Virus record (IMG/VR): IMGVR_UViG_3300048919_000540
Coordinates: 1-35,219 of that record
Reading direction: 5' to 3' (one strand)
Source of the DNA: a virus
DNA: 35,219 nucleotides
How positions within the stretch are numbered: the stretch's first letter is position 1; every line of letters starts with the position of its first letter. The notes beneath the pieces are model-generated. The model ran no database searches and was not told the DNA's origin. It was given only the letters and a program-made list of their open reading frames with translations. Made by a program: the position numbers and the translations under genes. Positions 5,333 through 33,029 of the stretch are shown in pieces.

Positions 5333-5793
5333 AGGCGAAAATCATCGGCGGCACTGCCGCAGCCGTTATTGCCCTGTCCGCCGCTGTGCTGGTCAAGCCG
5401 CGCGAGGGCTATGCACCGACGCCCTACATCGACATGGTCGGTGTCGCGACGTACTGCTACGGCGATACGGACAAGCCGGACAAGGCGTACTACACCGAGG
5501 CGGAGTGTGCTGCGCGGCTCAACAGCCGCCTGGGCGAGTACCTCACCGGCATACAGGCCTGCATCCATGTCCCGCTGGAACAGCACGAGTGGGCAGCACT
5601 GCTGAGCTGGTCCTACAACGTAGGGACCACCGCAGCCTGTGGCTCCTCGCTGGTGCGCAAGATCAACAGCGGTCGACCGCCCTCTGCCTGGTGCGCAGAG
5701 CTGGACCGGTGGGTCTATGCAGGTGGGAAACGCGTGCAGGGCCTCGTCTATCGCCGCGCCGCTGAGCGCGCCATGTGTGAAGGGAGGAAATGA
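5329..5793 (+). CDS. SAR endolysin (GH24 lysozyme)
   Basis: 154 aa from the ATG at 5329, overlapping the holin stop. Residues 4-22 are a weakly hydrophobic Ala/Gly-rich segment (KIIGGTAAAVIALSAAVLV), as in signal-arrest-release endolysins, which reach the periplasm by Sec and stay tethered until the membrane is depolarised. The T4-lysozyme-type catalytic triad is complete: E26, D35 and T41 with the exact E-x8-D-x5-T spacing. Several cysteines (for example C43) suggest disulfide-controlled activation. It cleaves the glycan strands of peptidoglycan. The conserved LLSWSYNVG region follows. Confidence 0.92.
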   Translation: MKAKIIGGTAAAVIALSAAVLVKPREGYAPTPYIDMVGVATYCYGDTDKPDKAYYTEAECAARLNSRLGEYLTGIQACIHVPLEQHEWAALLSWSYNVGTTAACGSSLVRKINSGRPPSAWCAELDRWVYAGGKRVQGLVYRRAAERAMCEGRK

Positions 5794-5794
5794 C

Positions 5795-5938
5795 ATGTAC
5801 GACGGTATCGGGAACGCTTTCGCGTTCGGCCTGGTGTTGGCCATGGCTGCAGGCGCGGCGCTGATGGCCATTCTGTTCTGGCTGATCCCCTGGCTCTGGG
5901 AGCTGGTGAAGCCTTGGATCCACATGGTGACCGCGTGA
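5795..5938 (+). CDS. Small membrane protein of the lysis cassette
   Basis: 47 aa, with AGGGAGGAAA directly upstream and a start 1 nt after the endolysin stop. Almost the whole chain is hydrophobic (residues 8-34, AFAFGLVLAMAAGAALMAIL and on), ending in a Trp-rich amphipathic tail (WLWELVKPWIHM). It lies between the endolysin and Rz and overlaps the GTG start of Rz. It could be a second holin, an antiholin or a pinholin-type regulator. No family is recognised. Confidence 0.65.
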   Translation: MYDGIGNAFAFGLVLAMAAGAALMAILFWLIPWLWELVKPWIHMVTA

Positions 5939-6411
5939 GCCGCACCGCCATCGCAGTTGTAGCCTTCGCCCTGTGGTCCGCGGCCATGTTCGGTGCTGGC
6001 TGGGCTTGGCGTGGTGATCGCGCTGAGGGTGCCGATGCGCGGCAGCAGGCCAGCGCTAGCTCCGCCCAGGTGCAGCAGGTCAACCAGAGCCGTGCCACCG
6101 AGCACGCCCAGGCCGAGACACTGGCCACCATTGGAGCGAAGCATGAAGAAGACCGGACTGCGGCCGAGGCCGTCCCTGCTGCTGTTGTGGCTGGCCTGCG
6201 CAGCGGCAATCTCCGCCTGCGCGACGACCTCGCCACCTGCCACACCGCTCGCCTGTCCGAAGCTGCCGCCGGCGCCGTCGAACGTGATGCGCGCGCCGAA
6301 CTACGTCCAGAGGTTGTCGGAGCTGCTGTTCGAATCGTCACCGACGCCGAGGACCACGTCCGAGCCTGCCAAGCAGTGATCGCCGCCGACCGCCAGCCGG
6401 TGACGCAATGA
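5935..6411 (+). CDS. Rz-like inner-membrane spanin
   Basis: 158 aa from a GTG start at 5935 that overlaps the preceding stop. Residues 4-22 form one N-terminal membrane helix (TAIAVVAFALWSAAMFGAGW), followed by a long periplasmic helical and coiled-coil region rich in Ala, Glu, Gln and Arg. This is the i-spanin architecture: the protein joins the outer-membrane lipoprotein Rz1 and fuses the membranes at the end of lysis. The Rz1 gene is nested in the +1 frame, which supports the call. Confidence 0.85.
   Translation: MSRTAIAVVAFALWSAAMFGAGWAWRGDRAEGADARQQASASSAQVQQVNQSRATEHAQAETLATIGAKHEEDRTAAEAVPAAVVAGLRSGNLRLRDDLATCHTARLSEAAAGAVERDARAELRPEVVGAAVRIVTDAEDHVRACQAVIAADRQPVTQ
6143..6379 (+). CDS. 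Rz1-like outer-membrane spanin lipoprotein, nested in Rz
   Basis: 78 aa encoded wholly inside the Rz gene in the +1 frame. The N-terminus MKKTGLRPRPSLLLLWLACA is a lipoprotein signal, with the lipobox AISAC just after it, so the mature protein begins with an acylated cysteine. It is followed by a proline-rich segment (TTSPPATPLACPKLPPAPS) typical of Rz1. It is inferred to sit in the outer membrane and bind the Rz C-terminus across the periplasm. Confidence 0.88.
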   Translation: MKKTGLRPRPSLLLLWLACAAAISACATTSPPATPLACPKLPPAPSNVMRAPNYVQRLSELLFESSPTPRTTSEPAKQ

Positions 6412-7701: not shown

Positions 7702-8106
7702 ATGGCAAGGCCTCGACTGCCCGTCGCAAAAGCTGCGACAAGCGGCGCCGCCATCAAGAACCCTGGCCGGCACGCCGGCAGGAAGCGCCCGACCGGCGTT
7801 CGCGCCTTGGGTGAGCCGTACAAGACGATGACGGCCGGCGAGAAGCGCGCCTGGAAGGAGTTCGCCGCAGAGATGCCCTGGCTCAACGCAAGCCACCGCG
7901 TGCTGCTGCGCCTGGCTTGCCTCTGGACCGCTCGCATGGAAGACCCGAAAGCCGAATTCGGCGTGTCAGCAACCCAGGCGCTCAGCTCGATCTTGTCGAA
8001 GCTGGGTGCCACTCCCGTGGATGAATCGAAGGTTTCGCATGGCGGTGACGACGAAGACGCGGGCGAAGAATTCTTCGCCGGCGCAGGTTCCGGCCGATCG
8101 CACTAA
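7702..8106 (+). CDS. terS: Terminase small subunit (P27-like)
   Basis: 134 aa from the ATG at 7702, preceded by GAGGAA. The N-terminus (MARPRLPVAKAATSGAAIKN, PGRHAGRKRP) and the central helical part (YKTMTAGEKRAWKEF, then LNASHRVLLRLACLWTARM) match the small terminase of HK97-like phages. It recognises the packaging site on phage DNA and presents it to the large subunit. Its position just after the cos-like repeats is as expected. The acidic C-terminus overlaps the large terminase start by 68 nt in another frame. Confidence 0.82.
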   Translation: MARPRLPVAKAATSGAAIKNPGRHAGRKRPTGVRALGEPYKTMTAGEKRAWKEFAAEMPWLNASHRVLLRLACLWTARMEDPKAEFGVSATQALSSILSKLGATPVDESKVSHGGDDEDAGEEFFAGAGSGRSH

Positions 8107-9946
8107 GGCATATGCGCTGGACGTGGTAGCTGGCCGCATTGTTGCCGGGCCACACGTACGCAATGCCTGCCGTCGCCACCTCCAGGATCTAATCCAAGGC
8201 CCCGAACGGGGCCTCTTCTTTGACCACGAAGCCGCCGATTACGCGTTCCGGTACTTCGAGAACGTGCTGATGCTGTCGGAGGGCCAGTTCGAGGGTCGGA
8301 AGTTCGAGCTGCACCCGTCGCAGGCGTTCATCATCGGCTCGTTGTTTGGCTGGAAAGGGCCGGATCGTCTGCGCCGCTTCCGCCGCGCGTACATCGAACA
8401 GGGCAAGGGCAACGGGAAAAGCCCGCTTGCCGGTGGGCTGGGCCTGTTGGGGATGACGGCAGCGGGTGAGGCCGGCGCGCAAATCTACGCGGCAGCGGCG
8501 AAGAAGGACCAGGCGGGCATTCTGTTCGCCGACGCCGTGAAGATGGTCAAGAAGTCGCCGCTGCTGGCCAAGCGAGTGGAGTTCGCTGGCGGCGAGGGCC
8601 GGGAATTCAGCATGGCGCACCACGCCAGCGCGAGTTTTTTCCGGCCCGTGTCCCGCGACACCGGGCGTACCGGTTCCGGTCCCCGGCCGTACTTCGTGCT
8701 GGTCGATGAGGTGCATGAGCTTCCCGACCGGCGAATCATCGAAATGTTGGAGCGCGGGTTCAAGTTCCGCCGCGAGCCGCTGCTTTTCATGATCACCAAC
8801 TCCGGCAGCGACCGGACCTCGGTCTGCTGGGAAGAGCACGAACATGCGGTGAAGGTTGCGGCCGGCCACACCGAAGCGGTCAACGATCCGACCTTCATTG
8901 GCGATGTGATCGATGACCGCACCTTCAGCTACGTGTGCAGCTTGGACGACGGCGACGACCCGCTCGAGGACCCCAGCTGCTGGGCGAAGGCCAATCCCCT
9001 GTTGGGGGTAACGATCACCGAGCAGTACCTGGCGGATGTGGTGGCGCAAGCCAAGGCCATCCCCGGGTCGCTGAACGGCATTCTTCGGCTGCACTTCTGC
9101 GTGTGGACCGATGCGGAGACCGCTTGGATGACACGCCCGACGCTTGAACCGGCCCTGGCCGACTTCGATCCGCACGTGCATGCGGGCCGCAAGGTTTACC
9201 TCGGCCTCGATCTGTCCCAGGTGCGGGATATCACCGCGATGGCAGCGGTGGTCGAGACCGGCACGGTGCCGGTGGAGGTCGAGGTTGAGGGCGAGAAGCT
9301 CATCATCGAGAAGCCGACATTCGACGCCTGGATCGAGGCGTGGACACCCGGCGACACGCTGGACGCGCGGCAGCTGCAGGACAAGCTTCCGTACCGCGCG
9401 TGGGTCAACGGTGGGTTCCTGCACGCACCGCAGGGTCAGGCGATTAACTTCCGGCACGTGGCCCAAGTCATGGCCGAGTACGACAACCGGTACGACGTGC
9501 AGCTGGTCGCATACGACCGGTATGCGTTTCGGCGCTTCGAAGAAGAGGTCAACGACATTGGCTTGTCGGTGACCTTCGCCGAGCACCCGCAGGGCGGCTG
9601 CAAGAAGGGCAAGCCATTGGACGCAGCGGTCGAGGCGGCCGAGCAGTCGGGCCAGCCAGCTCCGGAGGGCACGTGGATGCCCGGATCACTGCGGTTGCTG
9701 GAGGAAGCGCTGCTGGAAGGGCGCCTGCGCCTGCGTCGAAACCCAGTGTTGGTGTCCGCAATCATGTCCGCCGTCATCGAATCGGACCGCTGGGGTAACA
9801 GCTGGCTGTCGAAGGCGAGGTCGGCAAACAAGATCGACGCCGCGGTGGCCCTTTGCATGGCCATCGGCGCGGCACACGCCATGCCGCAGGACTCCGGCGG
9901 CATTGATGACTACCTGGAAAACGGCTTCTTTGGACTGATCGGATGA
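8039..9946 (+). CDS. terL: Terminase large subunit
   Basis: 635 aa from the ATG at 8039 (GAAGG 7 nt upstream). An upstream ATG at 8006 lacks a ribosome-binding site. The ATPase half has Walker A GKGNGKS (residues 122-128) and Walker B FVLVDE (220-224). The C-terminal nuclease half shows the acidic metal-binding strand GLDLSQVRD and the later YDRYAF. This is the Terminase_1 / HK97-type motor-nuclease that cuts concatemers and pumps DNA into the prohead. It ends in an ATGA overlap with portal. Confidence 0.95.
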   Translation: MAVTTKTRAKNSSPAQVPADRTKAYALDVVAGRIVAGPHVRNACRRHLQDLIQGPERGLFFDHEAADYAFRYFENVLMLSEGQFEGRKFELHPSQAFIIGSLFGWKGPDRLRRFRRAYIEQGKGNGKSPLAGGLGLLGMTAAGEAGAQIYAAAAKKDQAGILFADAVKMVKKSPLLAKRVEFAGGEGREFSMAHHASASFFRPVSRDTGRTGSGPRPYFVLVDEVHELPDRRIIEMLERGFKFRREPLLFMITNSGSDRTSVCWEEHEHAVKVAAGHTEAVNDPTFIGDVIDDRTFSYVCSLDDGDDPLEDPSCWAKANPLLGVTITEQYLADVVAQAKAIPGSLNGILRLHFCVWTDAETAWMTRPTLEPALADFDPHVHAGRKVYLGLDLSQVRDITAMAAVVETGTVPVEVEVEGEKLIIEKPTFDAWIEAWTPGDTLDARQLQDKLPYRAWVNGGFLHAPQGQAINFRHVAQVMAEYDNRYDVQLVAYDRYAFRRFEEEVNDIGLSVTFAEHPQGGCKKGKPLDAAVEAAEQSGQPAPEGTWMPGSLRLLEEALLEGRLRLRRNPVLVSAIMSAVIESDRWGNSWLSKARSANKIDAAVALCMAIGAAHAMPQDSGGIDDYLENGFFGLIG

Positions 9947-11202
9947 CAACTTTTCGCTGGTACAACCCGATGAGCTGGCGGTTCTTCGGCTATGACGACC
10001 CCGCGACGGGGAACTATGTCGAGGTCGACCTCTCGGTCGGTGGAAAGGGCACGAAGGCCGGTGTTCGCGTAACCCAGAAGAGCGCTCTTACGGTCAGCAT
10101 CGTCTGGTCGTGTGTGAAGGTTCTTTCCGAGTCCGCGGCCGGCCTGCCCTGGAAGCTGTACGAGGACACCGGCGGCCTGCGAGCGCTCGTGAAGGGCAGC
10201 AGCGCTCAACGGCGGCGCTTGCTCAGGCTGATCGCCAAGCCCAACCCGTACATCAAGTGGTTGGACCTGATCAAAGCCGTGGTGGTGAACATGGCGCTGC
10301 GGGGCAACTCCTTCGCCATCATCCAACGCGACGACAGCGGCGCATGGATCGGCCTGATTCCGGTCGGAGTGGACAGCGTCCGCATCGACACCGACGACGG
10401 GCTGATCTACTGGGCAACGATCAACGGCAAGGAGACACCTGTCTCGCCGGAAAACATGCTGCACTTCAAGCTGTTCAGCCCGGACGGCATCGTCGGCCTT
10501 TCACCGGTGGAGTACCAGGCCGAAACGATCGGTTTGGCGCGCGCCGCGCAGGACTGGTCGGCACGGTTCATGCGAAAGGGCGGCTTCACCGGTGGCTACA
10601 TCACCTATCCCGGGTTCCTGACCAAGGAGCAGCAGGCGCAGATCAAGGCGAAGCTGCCGGATATTCGTCAGGGTGATGTGGATGACCTGGGCAAGATGGC
10701 CATCCTTCAGGGCGGACCGACGATCACGCCGGCAGGCCTGACGCAGAAAGACAGTCAGTTCATCGAGTCGCAGCAGTTCCAGGAAGAAGCACTCGCCGGC
10801 ATCTGGGGCGTTCCGCTCTACCTGACCAATCGCGCGCGCTCGACTTCGGTTCTTGGGTCGAACCTTGAACAGCAGACCAGCGGCTTTGTGACCTTCGGCC
10901 TGAAGCCCTATCTGGACGCGATCGAAAGCGAGATCAACGACAAGCTCTTCGCTGACACGGAGATCTTTGTTGAGGCGGTCGTGGAGGGCTTGCTGCGCGC
11001 GGATAGCGGCGCCCGCTCCACCTACTACAAGACCGCCCTTGGCGGCTCCGGTGGCTCGGGCTGGATGACCATCAACGAGGTGCGGGTGAAGGAGAACCTC
11101 CCCGCGCTCGACGGTGATCAATACAACCAGGTCACCCGGTGGACCAGCAACCAACCCGATTCCAGCAACGACGACCCAACGGGAGATCCCGCCAATGCTT
11201 AG
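9943..11202 (+). CDS. HK97-family portal protein
   Basis: 419 aa. Features of the HK97 portal family are visible: the early ALTVSIVWSCVKVLSESAAG helix, LPWKLYE, NPYIKWLDLIKAVVVNMALR, the LIPVG turn, and the long C-terminal VPLYLTNRARSTSVLGSNLE motif preceding the stem and crown helices. Twelve copies form the ring at the capsid vertex through which DNA passes and to which the connectors attach. It overlaps the terminase gene by 4 nt and the protease gene by 8 nt. The C-terminal ~25 residues are polar and Asn/Pro-rich. Confidence 0.95.
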   Translation: MTTFRWYNPMSWRFFGYDDPATGNYVEVDLSVGGKGTKAGVRVTQKSALTVSIVWSCVKVLSESAAGLPWKLYEDTGGLRALVKGSSAQRRRLLRLIAKPNPYIKWLDLIKAVVVNMALRGNSFAIIQRDDSGAWIGLIPVGVDSVRIDTDDGLIYWATINGKETPVSPENMLHFKLFSPDGIVGLSPVEYQAETIGLARAAQDWSARFMRKGGFTGGYITYPGFLTKEQQAQIKAKLPDIRQGDVDDLGKMAILQGGPTITPAGLTQKDSQFIESQQFQEEALAGIWGVPLYLTNRARSTSVLGSNLEQQTSGFVTFGLKPYLDAIESEINDKLFADTEIFVEAVVEGLLRADSGARSTYYKTALGGSGGSGWMTINEVRVKENLPALDGDQYNQVTRWTSNQPDSSNDDPTGDPANA

Positions 11203-11839
11203 CAAGTATTCCTGCCCGTTCGAGGTCAAGGCGGCGGACGACGCCGGCAACTTCGAAGGCTACGCCTCGGTGTTCAACAACGTTGACCTCGGTGAGGACC
11301 TGATCCTGCCGGGCGCCTTCGTCAAGGTGAAGACGACCAGGACTGGCCGGCTACGCCTGGCGCTGTACCACAACCTGACCCGTTTGATCGGCGATGCCGA
11401 GTTCAAGCAGGACGACAACGGCCTGCACCTGAAAGGGAAGGTCAACCTCAACGTCAGCTACGCCAAGGACGCCTACGAGCTGATGAAGGCCGGCACGTTG
11501 GACGAAATGTCGGTCGGCTTCAACACGCTGGAGGACGCGATTGAAAACCGCGAGGGACGGCGGGTGCGCGTCATCAAGAAGGCCGAACTGTGGGAGGCCT
11601 CGGTCGTCCCCTTCGGCATGAACCCGGAAGCACAGGTGATGAGCGTCAAGTCCGACGTTCGCGCCTTCGAATCAGCCCTTCGCGAACGCATGGGGCTGTC
11701 CCAGAAAGAGGCGGCGGCCGTCGCCTCGCTCGGCTTTCCCGCGATCCACCGAGACGGTGGCATTGGGGACACGGAGACCGTGAAACAGCTGCAGAAACTC
11801 GGCAACTCCATCCAATCCATCTTTGAAGGAACGAACTAA
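11195..11839 (+). CDS. Prohead serine protease (HK97 family, U35)
   Basis: 214 aa from the ATG at 11195. It shows the typical GYASVFNNVDLGEDLILPGA start, H59 in LYHNL and S106 in DEMSVGF, which are the expected catalytic His and Ser. The ELWEASVVPFGMNP segment closes the fold. The enzyme cuts the delta domain from the major capsid protein and itself during head maturation. It lies between portal and capsid, as in HK97. Its stop overlaps the capsid ATG (TAATG). The C-terminal ~60 residues may be a removable scaffold-like tail. Confidence 0.93.
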   Translation: MLSKYSCPFEVKAADDAGNFEGYASVFNNVDLGEDLILPGAFVKVKTTRTGRLRLALYHNLTRLIGDAEFKQDDNGLHLKGKVNLNVSYAKDAYELMKAGTLDEMSVGFNTLEDAIENREGRRVRVIKKAELWEASVVPFGMNPEAQVMSVKSDVRAFESALRERMGLSQKEAAAVASLGFPAIHRDGGIGDTETVKQLQKLGNSIQSIFEGTN

Positions 11840-28425: not shown

Positions 28426-29358
28426 ATGTGCTATTCCGCCCAAATCGAAGCCGCCTACCAGAAGCTGGTCCGCATGACCGGTGCCACCGTGTCGCTGCAG
28501 GAATTCGCCGCGCTCTACGCCCATGACCCGGGCAAGAAGCGGCCCAAGACCCCGAAGGCGATGGACGACGCATTCCGGGCCGGCACCAGCGCGGCAGAGC
28601 GGGCCGTGTGGGCGGAGATCCAGCAGTGGAACCAGGCCGAGGCCGCCATTCTGGAGCAGGAGCTTTTCGCCAACCGCAAGCGGCTGGCCGATGCGGAGCG
28701 ATCGCTGCAGGTCAAGGAGACGAAGAAGGCCCGGGAAGACGTGCGCATCGCTGGGAACAAGATCGAGCGCGCGATGGGCAAGCTGGCCGACCTCAAGCGC
28801 GCCGAGGGCAAGGACCGGGACAGCCGAATCTTCCCCGGGGTCTACGCCCCGGTGATCGTCTCGGAGGGCGGCAAGCTGACGATCAAGCCGATGCGCTATC
28901 AGTGCCGACTGGCCGGCAAGCCGGCCAACTACGACCAGCGTTTCCCCGGCACCTACAACGCCCGCCGCGACAGCCTGGAGAAGTTCTGGGCGCCGGCCTT
29001 CGGCCACACCCACGGCTTGATGGTGGTCGATACCTTCTACGAGAACGTGGAGGGGCCGGACGGCAAGAACCAGGTAGTGCAGTTCACCCCGCGCACGCGC
29101 GAGCCGATGCTGGTGGCCTGCCTGTGGTCGCACTGGGTGGATCCGGCCGGCAAGGAGCCGGATCTGCTGTCGTTCGCCGCGATCACCGACGACCCGGAAC
29201 CCGAAGTTGCCGCCGCCGGCCACGACCGGACGATCATCAACATCAAGCCCGAGCACGTCGACGCCTGGCTGAACCCTGATCCTGCCGATCTGGCGGCGCT
29301 GTACCGGATCTTTGACGACAAGCGGCACCCGTTTTACGAGCACCGGCTGGCAGCCTAG
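28426..29358 (+). CDS. SRAP (HMCES/YedK-like) protein with large helical insert
   Basis: 310 aa. The second residue is Cys (MCYSAQ), the SRAP nucleophile after Met removal. Other expected residues are present: N178 (YNARRDSLEKFW), E206 (VVDTFYE) and H266 (GHDRTIINIKPEHVDAWLN). SRAP proteins react with abasic sites in single-stranded DNA and form a protective thiazolidine crosslink. Family members are about 220 aa; here residues ~50-130 form an extra charged helical hairpin (EIQQWNQAEAAILEQELFAN, RLADAERSLQVKETKKARED). It overlaps the opposite-strand gene at its stop. It has no clear ribosome-binding site. It is likely a phage accessory gene shielding DNA damage during replication or induction. 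Confidence 0.88.
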   Translation: MCYSAQIEAAYQKLVRMTGATVSLQEFAALYAHDPGKKRPKTPKAMDDAFRAGTSAAERAVWAEIQQWNQAEAAILEQELFANRKRLADAERSLQVKETKKAREDVRIAGNKIERAMGKLADLKRAEGKDRDSRIFPGVYAPVIVSEGGKLTIKPMRYQCRLAGKPANYDQRFPGTYNARRDSLEKFWAPAFGHTHGLMVVDTFYENVEGPDGKNQVVQFTPRTREPMLVACLWSHWVDPAGKEPDLLSFAAITDDPEPEVAAAGHDRTIINIKPEHVDAWLNPDPADLAALYRIFDDKRHPFYEHRLAA

Positions 29359-29630
29359 AGCGCGTTCCTATCAAGGCCAATCTGCTCGGTTAAAACTGTC
29401 AGTGATTGCTGGAATGCTGCGACGAACAGCGGGCCGCCGTCATCCGCGTGGGTGCTTGCGATCGATGGGAGCAGCTTCGTCCATGTGTCGAGTAGGGCGC
29501 CTGGATCCTGATGGGTCAAGATTGAAACGCGAAGTGCGTATTCCATCGCCTTGAGGTAGCCGCGATGCACCTCAAGACCAGCCTCGCAGGCATGAAGGCG
29601 ATCTAGGATTTCGGTGATCTCGGTAGTCAT
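29355..29630 (-). CDS. Small helical protein, unknown
   Basis: 91 aa on the minus strand (MTTEITEILDRLHACEAGLE, then HRGYLKAMEYALRVSILTHQ). The whole chain is predicted helical, with a plausible gene-like composition. It converges with the SRAP gene (4-nt overlap of stops) and diverges from the Ntn-hydrolase gene. Its start is preceded by CGAGCCCACC, almost the same leader as the divergent gene. No family is recognised. Confidence 0.6.
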   Translation of the reverse strand: MTTEITEILDRLHACEAGLEVHRGYLKAMEYALRVSILTHQDPGALLDTWTKLLPSIASTHADDGGPLFVAAFQQSLTVLTEQIGLDRNAL

Positions 29631-29633
29631 GGT

Positions 29634-29688
29634 GGGCTCGACAGGTCTTGGAAGGAAAGCGATAGTTGGCGGACCCTAAAACGAGCCC
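29634..29688. promoter_or_regulatory. Divergent intergenic region with mirrored leaders
   Basis: GGGCTCG (29634-29640) and CGAGCCC (29682-29688) are perfect complements. Each lies 3 nt before the start codon of one of the two divergent genes, so both mRNAs begin their coding with CGAGCCC-N3-ATG. The symmetry suggests a shared regulator or a shared translational feature. No strong promoter is recognised. Confidence 0.35.
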
Positions 29689-29691
29689 GCT

Positions 29692-30306
29692 ATGAGCATC
29701 CTCAACGTTTTGCTCAATCGTGACCACCTCGTAGTCGCAGTGGACACCCTTGCTGAGGATGCCCGTACCGGTGCCCATTCGGCAGGTGCAAAGTTGTTGC
29801 TGATTCCCCAGCACAACCTGGTGCTGGCCACGCGGGGCTCTACCCAGTTCTTTCTCCGCATCTATGAGTTGGCTCTGCAGGCCAGCTTCCGCGCGGACTT
29901 CACGATAGAGCAGCTATCCGCTGAGCTCGGGCGGGTAATGGACCAGTTGTGGCCCAACTACGAGAAGGCGGCAAGGGAGGCCGGCCTGCCGATCGAACAG
30001 CTTGGGACGGAGCTGGTGCTCGGGGGCTGGTCGCCGAAGAGTGGCAGGATGGTGGCCACGGCGTATGCGAAGAACGACAGTTCGCGCAAAACATTGCTTC
30101 AACCCCTAGAGGGGGGCTTGGCTTCGCCCGGAGAGCCGCTGGCTGGTAGGCCGGATAGCTTTGCCGAAGCCGATTTGCTCGCAGCCGGAAAGATCCAAGC
30201 CGCTTGGCTCAACAGTCGGGTGGGGCGAGTGGTGGCTGGCGGTCGGTTGCTGGCCGGGTATCTGCAGAATGCGCAGGCAGTGGTGAAGGACCTCGGGCCA
30301 ATCTAA
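29692..30306 (+). CDS. Proteasome/HslV-like Ntn-hydrolase, Ser nucleophile predicted
   Basis: 204 aa. After removal of the initiator Met the protein would begin with Ser, and Asp and Lys then fall at mature positions 17 and 33 (VAVDT, AGAKLLL). Those are the positions of the proteasome/HslV catalytic residues Thr1, Asp17 and Lys33. The surrounding pattern also agrees: a first strand ILNVLLNRDHLVVAVD, then KLLLIPQHNLVLATRGSTQF (compare the HslV turn after K33), and a later ELVLGGWSPKSGRMVATAY strand pair. The Ntn fold is thus likely and a hydrolase or peptidase activity is possible. Substrate, assembly state and role are unknown. It sits in the accessory region, divergent from a small helical gene. 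Confidence 0.7.
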   Translation: MSILNVLLNRDHLVVAVDTLAEDARTGAHSAGAKLLLIPQHNLVLATRGSTQFFLRIYELALQASFRADFTIEQLSAELGRVMDQLWPNYEKAAREAGLPIEQLGTELVLGGWSPKSGRMVATAYAKNDSSRKTLLQPLEGGLASPGEPLAGRPDSFAEADLLAAGKIQAAWLNSRVGRVVAGGRLLAGYLQNAQAVVKDLGPI

Positions 30307-30346
30307 TGATCAGGCCAGTGCTGCGCTTCGCCGCCCACAGTGGTGT

Positions 30347-30613
30347 TCAGGCGCGATGGGGTTGGGATAGGGGAGTACCCAGTACGTGATCACACTCAAC
30401 CAGCCGAGCATTGCTCACGGCCTGGCGCCCGCCGCACTTGGCACAAGCGAGAAGGGTTCCGCCCGGCATGGATCCGAGGCTGGGGCCTGTCGAGTGAGTG
30501 ATGTGCTGGCAACTATTACAGCGGACGCTGATGGCGATGACGCTTTGGATATTCCCCTGCTGATCGCGCATCGGGTCGATGTTGAGAACGTAGAAAAGAC
30601 CTGTGTCTGGCAT
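30347..30613 (-). CDS. Zinc-ribbon protein A (paralogue of 31274-31516)
   Basis: 88 aa from the ATG at 30613, chosen by alignment with its paralogue; an ATG at 30640 is also open. It begins MPDTGLF. C32-NS-C35 and C57-AK-C60 form a four-cysteine zinc ribbon with PGGTLLACAKCGGRQAVSNA around the second pair. The same M-x-DTGLF start and PGG-xx-L-x-C-x-KC-xx-RQA-x-S-x-AR pattern occur in the minus-strand gene at 31274. The two lie on either side of the BLUF gene. Function is unknown; a nucleic-acid or protein adaptor role is possible. Confidence 0.65.
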   Translation of the reverse strand: MPDTGLFYVLNIDPMRDQQGNIQSVIAISVRCNSCQHITHSTGPSLGSMPGGTLLACAKCGGRQAVSNARLVECDHVLGTPLSQPHRA

Positions 30614-30699
30614 GGCCGTATACCGAGTAGTCAATTGCATGCTGCAGGGTGGGACGAGTAGATCTTGTGACGGGGGTCCGAATTCAGCAAGAGTTTGAA

Positions 30700-30730
30700 G
30701 CTGAATCGTTATGGATTCAGCCCATATATC
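30700..30730 (+). promoter_or_regulatory. Candidate operator and promoter upstream of BLUF gene
   Basis: GCTGAATC-N6-GATTCAGC (30700-30721) is a perfect inverted repeat, with a third half-site GAATTCAGC just upstream (30680-30688). A possible -35/-10 pair (CTGAAT at 30701, TATATC at 30725, 18-bp spacer) overlaps it. A repressor bound here would block the promoter. The sequence is unlike the early operators at 59-120. Confidence 0.4.
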
Positions 30731-32522: not shown

Positions 32523-33029
32523 ATGCTCCCGATGCACGGTTACCAAGGCTTCCGCTCAGCACCACCACCCTCTGGCTGGGTCCAGCTGGGGGATGCCTGG
32601 GTGCTGTGGTGGGGCGGCCGGCAGATCGCCCAGATCTCGCCGGCGAAGGAGCGCGGGGTGCGAGTGCACCTCGATGCCCGGAAGATGTGGCAGACCAAGG
32701 ATGTATGGGCGGCGAGCGTCGACCAGGGCAAGCGGTACGCCGAGCGCTGGTGCGCGGCCAGGCTCTACCCTGAGATGCGGCTGCGAGCCGCTGTGGCTCG
32801 GATGGTGGACGGCTCCCCGGGGGAACCTCTACCGCCGCTGCCCGGCCTGCCGCCGACGCCCGAACAGCTGCAGCAGGCCCGGCGTCTGGCCGAGGCGGGG
32901 GCGAAGGAGCTGGAGCGGGTCAAGGAAGCGCTGGCGCCAATTCGTCCGCCGGCGGCAAAGAAGCCCAGGGCGAAGGACCCGATGAAGGCTTGGCTAAAGG
33001 CGGGGTATTCGCAGATTCGCGGCTACTAA
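32523..33029 (+). CDS. Conserved-looking protein, unknown
   Basis: 168 aa. Three frames are open here; this one is preferred for its composition, with a compact N-terminal domain (GYQGFRSAPPPSGWVQLGDA, WVLWWGGRQIAQISP, VRVHLDARKMWQTKD, GKRYAERWCAARLYP) and a basic, Pro/Ala-rich helical tail ending KAWLKAGYSQIRGY. The domain has the look of a small DNA- or phage-associated protein seen in Xanthomonadaceae genomes, but no function is known. The ribosome-binding site is weak. The flanking region is divergent from the secreted-protein gene. Confidence 0.6.
   Translation: MLPMHGYQGFRSAPPPSGWVQLGDAWVLWWGGRQIAQISPAKERGVRVHLDARKMWQTKDVWAASVDQGKRYAERWCAARLYPEMRLRAAVARMVDGSPGEPLPPLPGLPPTPEQLQQARRLAEAGAKELERVKEALAPIRPPAAKKPRAKDPMKAWLKAGYSQIRGY

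Follow-up and report, generated by a model that had tools for sequence, protein, structure and literature searches.

A predicted serine-nucleophile, proteasome-like Ntn hydrolase encoded on an optional cassette of Stenotrophomonas prophages

The gene at 29692..30306 (+ strand) of the window, the 35,219-nucleotide stretch of viral DNA analysed here at its full length (IMG/VR record IMGVR_UViG_3300048919_000540), encodes a 204-amino acid proteasome-like Ntn hydrolase, termed the Ntn protein, an assignment drawing on the translation, residue conservation in 90 of 90 homologues, an AlphaFold2 model, structural matches and dN/dS. The preferred explanation is that this protein is a stand-alone peptidase or amidase of the proteasome-like family, with a serine nucleophile and a specific substrate, which would be expressed in the lysogen from a moron. 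Judged from the sequence comparisons and the predicted structures, the probability of this explanation is roughly 0.6.

Results

The host phage and the predicted catalytic residues

The window is a siphovirus-like provirus. It encodes terminase, portal, head maturation protease, HK97-type capsid, tail tube, tape measure and tail proteins, as well as a holin/endolysin pair and an integrase fragment. Relatives of the Ntn protein are found at about 90 loci in viral contigs and at 28 loci in 84,980 species genomes, 27 of the latter in Stenotrophomonas (including one misnamed [Pseudomonas] hibiscicola), indicating that Stenotrophomonas is the likely host genus. Elsewhere in the window, GC-rich short tandem repeats with 18-21 bp units occupy 1924-2007 inside an ORF with a helix-turn-helix domain (1603-2496). 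Downstream of the Ntn gene and on the same strand, 32523-33029 encodes a 168-residue protein of unknown function (phrog_26768), and 60 of 104 loci have relatives of it close to the Ntn gene.

The Ntn ORF begins with the ATG at 29692 and its stop codon ends at 30306. The translated N terminus reads MSILNVLLNRDHLVVAVDTLAEDARTGAHSAGAKLLLIPQHNLVLATRGS, and counting the Ser that follows the initiator Met as 1 places Asp17 within VAVDT and Lys33 within GAK (Ser1, Asp17, Lys33 and Gly48 correspond to residues 2, 18, 34 and 49 of the translation). The sequence-only reading had remarked that these residues fall on the catalytic positions of HslV and the proteasome, and the translation agrees. On its own, such a threefold coincidence in a single ORF carries little weight, and it is conservation and structure that decide.

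Ser1, Asp17 and Lys33 are identical in all of the 90 distinct full-length homologues from Stenotrophomonas prophages (55-100% identical), so the loss among homologues that would have weighed against a catalytic role is not seen, and Gly48, Asn4, Thr18 and the Gly-Gly pair at 182-183 (Ser1 numbering) are equally unchanging. More distant relatives, 16-27% identical, were gathered by HMM searches of whole genomes and then aligned. Across 15 divergent members residue 1 is only ever Ser or Thr and directly follows the start Met, there is no variation at Lys33 or Gly48, and 14 of them have Asp17, the exception being a Hydrogenophaga protein (L116) with Asn17. A position 1 restricted to Ser and Thr combined with an invariant Lys33 is the pattern predicted for a working N-terminal nucleophile. 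The oxyanion-hole glycine is expected near position 47, and Gly48 is placed there by sequence only. The Met-Ser or Met-Thr start is found throughout the family, with no propeptide. The L116 gene (10001-10606), which combines Asn17 with Thr1 and Lys33, seemingly adjoins a tRNA gene and is possibly degenerate.

In an alternative reading the Ntn protein is a catalytically silent binding protein (a decoy, inhibitor or scaffold) in which the proteasome-like fold has been kept and turnover lost, as has happened in the inactive alpha subunits of the proteasome. Asn17 in L116 points in this direction, as does Anbu, in which no peptidase activity was detected despite an intact triad of the same residues (PMC6376114). 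The restriction of position 1 to Ser and Thr and the invariance of Lys33 and Gly48 across very divergent sequences are, however, what is expected of a working nucleophile, making the silent binder unlikely.

The gene is under purifying selection. Its median pairwise dN/dS is 0.17 over the full length, 0.095 across residues 2-60 and 0.21 in the C-terminal third, the part that varies freely among homologues. In pairs such as the proteins of loci L009 and L092, residues 1-125 show 94% identity and the remainder 54%, and at the nucleotide level the drop is from 88% to 55%. Differences of this type indicate recombination within the Ntn gene. This suggests that the C-terminal part of the Ntn protein may meet a variable partner or target.

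Database searches and the terminase label

The Ntn protein has no match in Pfam at E 10, and PF00227 has no match in 24 members of the family; PF00227 genes are found separately in the host genome G001. No NCBIfam model matches the subfamily and PADLOC assigns the protein to no defence family. The sole family match is PHROG_13702, which is described as terminase large subunit. This match, together with the lack of any Pfam or NCBIfam match above chance, is what would favour a fortuitous resemblance, the protein being unrelated to Ntn hydrolases and instead, for example, a terminase. The identity as a terminase was rejected, as the protein contains no terminase ATPase or nuclease Pfam domain and the real terminase large subunit (TerL) of the phage is encoded at 8006-9946. 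The label is probably an annotation error, the members of PHROG_13702 resembling proteasome-like hydrolases, and it probably arose because a relative of the Ntn gene adjoins TerL in L160. With two confident models matching proteasome subunits (below), a fortuitous resemblance is scarcely credible.

Searches of solved structures by sequence, using the protein and alignments A1 and A2, returned nothing relevant. Among 50,697 phage records no relative was found with P0001, L116, L137 or the alpha-type relatives as query, and L136 gave only three weak matches with E about 1. A plasmid search returned one weak relative, from Salinibacter, and scans of viral contigs with three distant relatives and with alignment A2 gave nothing usable.

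Predicted structure

AlphaFold2 models were obtained for the Ntn protein of the window (mean pLDDT 88.7) and for the distant relative L137 (26% identical to it; mean pLDDT 93.1). The top Foldseek matches of both are proteasome beta subunits, with best E values of 3e-8 for the window model and 2e-9 for the L137 model. VIA-align superposes the window model on a proteasome subunit with Z 17.8 (174 residues, 2.8 Å) and on Anbu (5nyw_C) with Z 17.7 (181 residues, 2.8 Å), and the L137 model on proteasome/Anbu chains with Z 18.8 (175 residues, 2.6 Å). Both models support the four-layer alpha-beta-beta-alpha sandwich of the proteasome beta subunit, each matching proteasome beta subunits and Anbu. The likeness to HslV proposed from the sequence holds for the fold in its shared core, whereas the nearest folds are those of proteasome beta subunits and Anbu, and helix H3 is missing from the models.

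The arrangement of secondary structural elements is the same in both models, with helices H1 and H2 (H2 spanning residues 72-96 in the window model), one C-terminal helix that is H4 by position, and then a Gly-Gly hairpin. The strand that ends near residue 145 is followed by the helix at 159 with no H3 in between, and this segment has lower pLDDT. The main contacts between two beta rings are made by the H3/H4 pair (PMC8665760), and the absence of H3 therefore makes a double-ring barrel unlikely, with the caution due to a lower-pLDDT segment.

The placement of Ser1, Lys33 and Asp17 is taken from the sequence and the alignments. In the VIA table of the window model the first aligned pair is often Met1 with residue 1, possibly a one-residue register slip in strand 1; in that of the more confident L137 model many proteasome and Anbu chains have their residue 1 aligned to residue 2, as expected. 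Against 15 proteobacterial HslV sequences hhalign gives a weak profile similarity (P 0.007), yet the alignment sets Asp17 on Asp17 and Lys33 on Lys33. Conservation, the interchange of Ser and Thr, two structure predictions and the weak HslV profile alignment are thus all in agreement with the earlier assignment of a proteasome/HslV-like Ntn-hydrolase fold, with a predicted Ser1 nucleophile, to a phage protein.

Comparison with known proteasome-like families

Fuchs, Alva and Lupas described 22 new proteasome-like subfamilies in 2021, some of them on phages and with limited functional clues; PPH was called the first true viral member, AAH was found on many phages, and neither a genomic context suggesting function nor, generally, an AAA+ partner was reported for the new subfamilies (PMC8665760). 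The statement in the sequence-only reading that no phage role is established for this fold therefore stands, PPH and AAH having been published without a function, although a phage member of the fold is not in itself new. The Ntn protein shares with the PPH/AAH/GPH set the proteasome-like fold, the Thr1/Ser1-Asp17-Lys33 triad, the lack of a propeptide and of an AAA+ partner, and the occurrence on phages or in proteobacteria (PMC8665760).

The differences from these families lie in length and secondary structure. PPH has about 140 residues and no H2, whereas the Ntn protein has 204 residues with H2, and membership in PPH was rejected on these two grounds. The distant prophage relatives L148, L149 and L159, which align with the Ntn family (P 4e-8), presumably resemble AAH-type proteins. 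Group I, which includes AAH, is described as being without the C-terminal S12 element, whereas the Ntn protein ends in a beta hairpin. Apart from connectase and PPH/RPC, every family is reported to possess H1-H4, in contrast to the Ntn protein, which lacks H3 in a region of lower confidence; the published description of GPH likewise gives H1-H4, a comparison made by description only.

In HslV, positions 1, 17 and 33 coincide with those of the Ntn protein without a gap and the core fold is the same, but HslV has Thr1 where the Ntn protein and all 90 close homologues have Ser1. The Ntn gene further differs in having no adjoining HslU and no PF00227 match, and its product in the absence of H3 and the presence of the C-terminal hairpin. 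Anbu is among the best structural matches and also has no AAA+ partner, but it is longer, has a C-terminal H5 and Thr1 and is encoded in a bacterial operon (PMC6376114), whereas the Ntn protein has Ser1 and is encoded on a phage moron. The 20S proteasome beta subunit is the best structural match, with the same triad positions and with a Gly-Gly that, like the SGG motif, precedes the last hairpin. Its nucleophile is a strictly conserved Thr (PMC4792962), replaced by Ser in the Ntn protein, in which the propeptide and H3 are also absent and the second-shell Asp166 and Ser169 of the proteasome are apparently Arg and Ala when counted from the Gly-Gly anchor. In the proteasome Thr1 is activated by Lys33, which is oriented by Asp17; the T1S proteasome keeps 55-60% of its activity on one substrate, and the Asp17-to-Asn change severely impairs the yeast enzyme (PMC4792962).

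Connectase offers another model, in which the Ntn protein would be a protein ligase or transpeptidase that moves a peptide to a specific target. Connectase itself, a monomeric proteasome-like homologue, catalyses ligation in place of hydrolysis (PMC8665760), and a stand-alone enzyme without an unfoldase fits the ligation mode. The Ntn protein is nevertheless the opposite of connectase in having H1 and H2 and no obvious insertion between strands 3 and 4, and no partner substrate was identified, so that a connectase-type activity is improbable.

A 988-bp cassette that is present or absent between close phages

The Ntn gene and its divergent neighbour, orf91, form a cassette of 988 bp (29359..30346) delimited by blastn and by tblastn of the flanks. 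The 91-amino acid product of orf91 (29355..29630, - strand) is probably helical by inspection and belongs to no known family, with no match in Pfam, PADLOC or NCBIfam. In most Stenotrophomonas loci orf91 is directly upstream of the Ntn gene and divergent from it; in others it is displaced or absent. Outside the cassette, the left flank encodes an SRAP-domain protein starting MCYSAQ (28426..29358, + strand; PF02586, E 5e-19) and the right flank a convergent 97-amino acid ORF with CxxC pairs, read from the translation (30347..30640, - strand). In 39 of 104 loci a cluster related to the latter ORF is found close to the Ntn gene.

The viral contigs L194 and L198 lack the cassette. Their tail protein is 99-100% identical to that of the window and their SRAP gene 99% identical, and homology skips from window position 29358 to 30347 with about 40 bp in between. 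L195 carries the cassette at 99.5% identity, and L196 and L197 are also without it. This clean presence or absence of 988 bp between near-identical phages shows the Ntn gene to be optional for this type of phage and to move as a cassette. On sequence grounds, the footprint of a promoter of its own (below) and the difference between close phages define the Ntn gene as a moron.

The position of the gene after the tail-fibre and SRAP genes, and of two distant relatives (L159 and L160) among tail or terminase genes, could be read as the mark of a late gene whose product processes a virion protein of its own phage, such as the tail fibre, tape measure or capsid. The gene is, however, missing from phages with a 99% identical tail protein and has its own promoter, and the phage already encodes a standard head maturation protease (11114-11839). 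Virion processing, one of the roles put forward in the sequence-only reading, is quite unlikely overall, and in this phage the optional nature of the moron and the promoter dedicated to it speak against such a role; the host-directed, defence and anti-defence roles named alongside it are possible.

No AAA+ unfoldase, HslU included, was found among the conserved neighbour clusters inspected and the window ORFs scanned; host HslU could possibly act on the Ntn protein in trans. The SRAP gene (HMCES/YedK-like), which directly adjoins that of the Ser1 enzyme, encodes another probable N-terminal nucleophile enzyme, with Cys as nucleophile, and 34 of 104 loci have an SRAP-like cluster close to the Ntn gene. 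The same part of the prophage often carries, as an accessory gene, one for a BLUF blue-light sensor protein (PF04940, E 2e-17; L015, 7219-7665, + strand), found in about 31 of 104 loci. The prophage-like region of L159 encodes two divergent Ntn paralogues (5388-6134 and 9817-10437, both - strand), one starting MS and the other MT, with two genes between them, one of which encodes a 724-residue protein with a carbohydrate-binding module.

A conserved promoter upstream of the Ntn gene

A promoter scan places a -35-like hexamer, TCGACA, at 29638..29643 and a -10-like hexamer, GATAGT, at 29661..29666 (both + strand), separated by a 17-nt spacer and ending 25 nt before the ATG. The family consensus, T[CGA]GACA, 16 to 18 nt and [GCA]ATAGT, is present in 47 of 57 non-redundant upstream regions, where it ends 24-27 nt before the start codon, and nearly all other sequence upstream of the start codon has diverged. 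This footprint occurs in 0.2% of mononucleotide shuffles and, with the proteins clustered at 80% identity, is present in 18 of the 20 clusters. A promoter common to other nearby morons was considered and rejected, as none of 19 other neighbouring gene clusters carries it. At position 2 of the -35 hexamer and position 1 of the -10 hexamer the consensus base T occurs in none of the 47 promoter-bearing regions, which fits a weakened (attenuated) sigma-70-type promoter, these sequences not being independent of one another.

An own terminator is a feature of many morons. No intrinsic terminator was found at 29300-30700, and the transcript possibly has a Rho-dependent end. Visual inspection suggested a conserved hairpin in the stretch from the -10 box to the ATG, but the idea was dropped: the stem has 3.8 pairs compared with 3.5 in shuffles, the mean folding energy is -5.9 compared with -4.6, and a large part of this stretch precedes the probable transcription start. 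The window has no Rfam matches.

Discussion

In the mechanism proposed for the Ntn protein, methionine aminopeptidase would remove Met1, Met-Ser and Met-Thr being good substrates, and expose Ser1 without a propeptide. By analogy with the proteasome mechanism, Lys33, oriented by Asp17, would then activate the Ser1 hydroxyl, and the backbone of Gly48 would supply the oxyanion hole. Given the same three residues and no propeptide, removal of Met alone should yield an active enzyme. The absence of an ATPase partner gene and of H3 suggests that the protein is probably a monomer or small oligomer, not a processive degradation barrel, and it may cut or transfer one specific exposed peptide or amide bond. 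The gene's own promoter and its dispensability suggest that it is probably expressed in lysogeny and that the target probably belongs to the host cell or to competing elements. The weakest step in this scheme is that the protein would be made in the lysogen and act on a host protein or on an incoming phage or mobile element. Which target or partner is recognised is probably determined by the interchangeable C-terminal third.

Several observations count against this explanation, namely the Asn17 of the L116 protein, the location of the distant relatives L159 and L160 among packaging or tail genes, which would fit a late virion-related role, the weak HslV profile similarity, and the absence of a Pfam family and of an intrinsic terminator. 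Anbu, in which the triad is intact and no peptidase activity was detected (PMC6376114), also counts against it. A bolder and only tentative proposal is that these morons form a family of stand-alone, site-specific proteases or ligases with a Ser nucleophile and no H3, which may reprogram, within the lysogen, a protein of the host or of a rival phage, the recombining C-terminal third serving as a swappable specificity module.

Phage-borne proteasome homologues such as PPH and AAH have been known since 2021, without a function (PMC8665760). The subfamily described here supplies genomic context, in that the gene belongs to a discrete cassette that has a conserved promoter of its own and a conserved divergent neighbour, and near-identical phages are found with and without the cassette. 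The analysis also exposes a misleading database label, the PHROG family that holds the Ntn protein being named terminase. Many Stenotrophomonas prophages thus appear to carry a small, optional gene with its own predicted promoter for a stand-alone relative of proteasome subunits, in which Ser takes the place of the usual Thr. The existence of cassette-plus and cassette-minus phages would make a first function for a phage-borne proteasome homologue testable by comparing lysogens.
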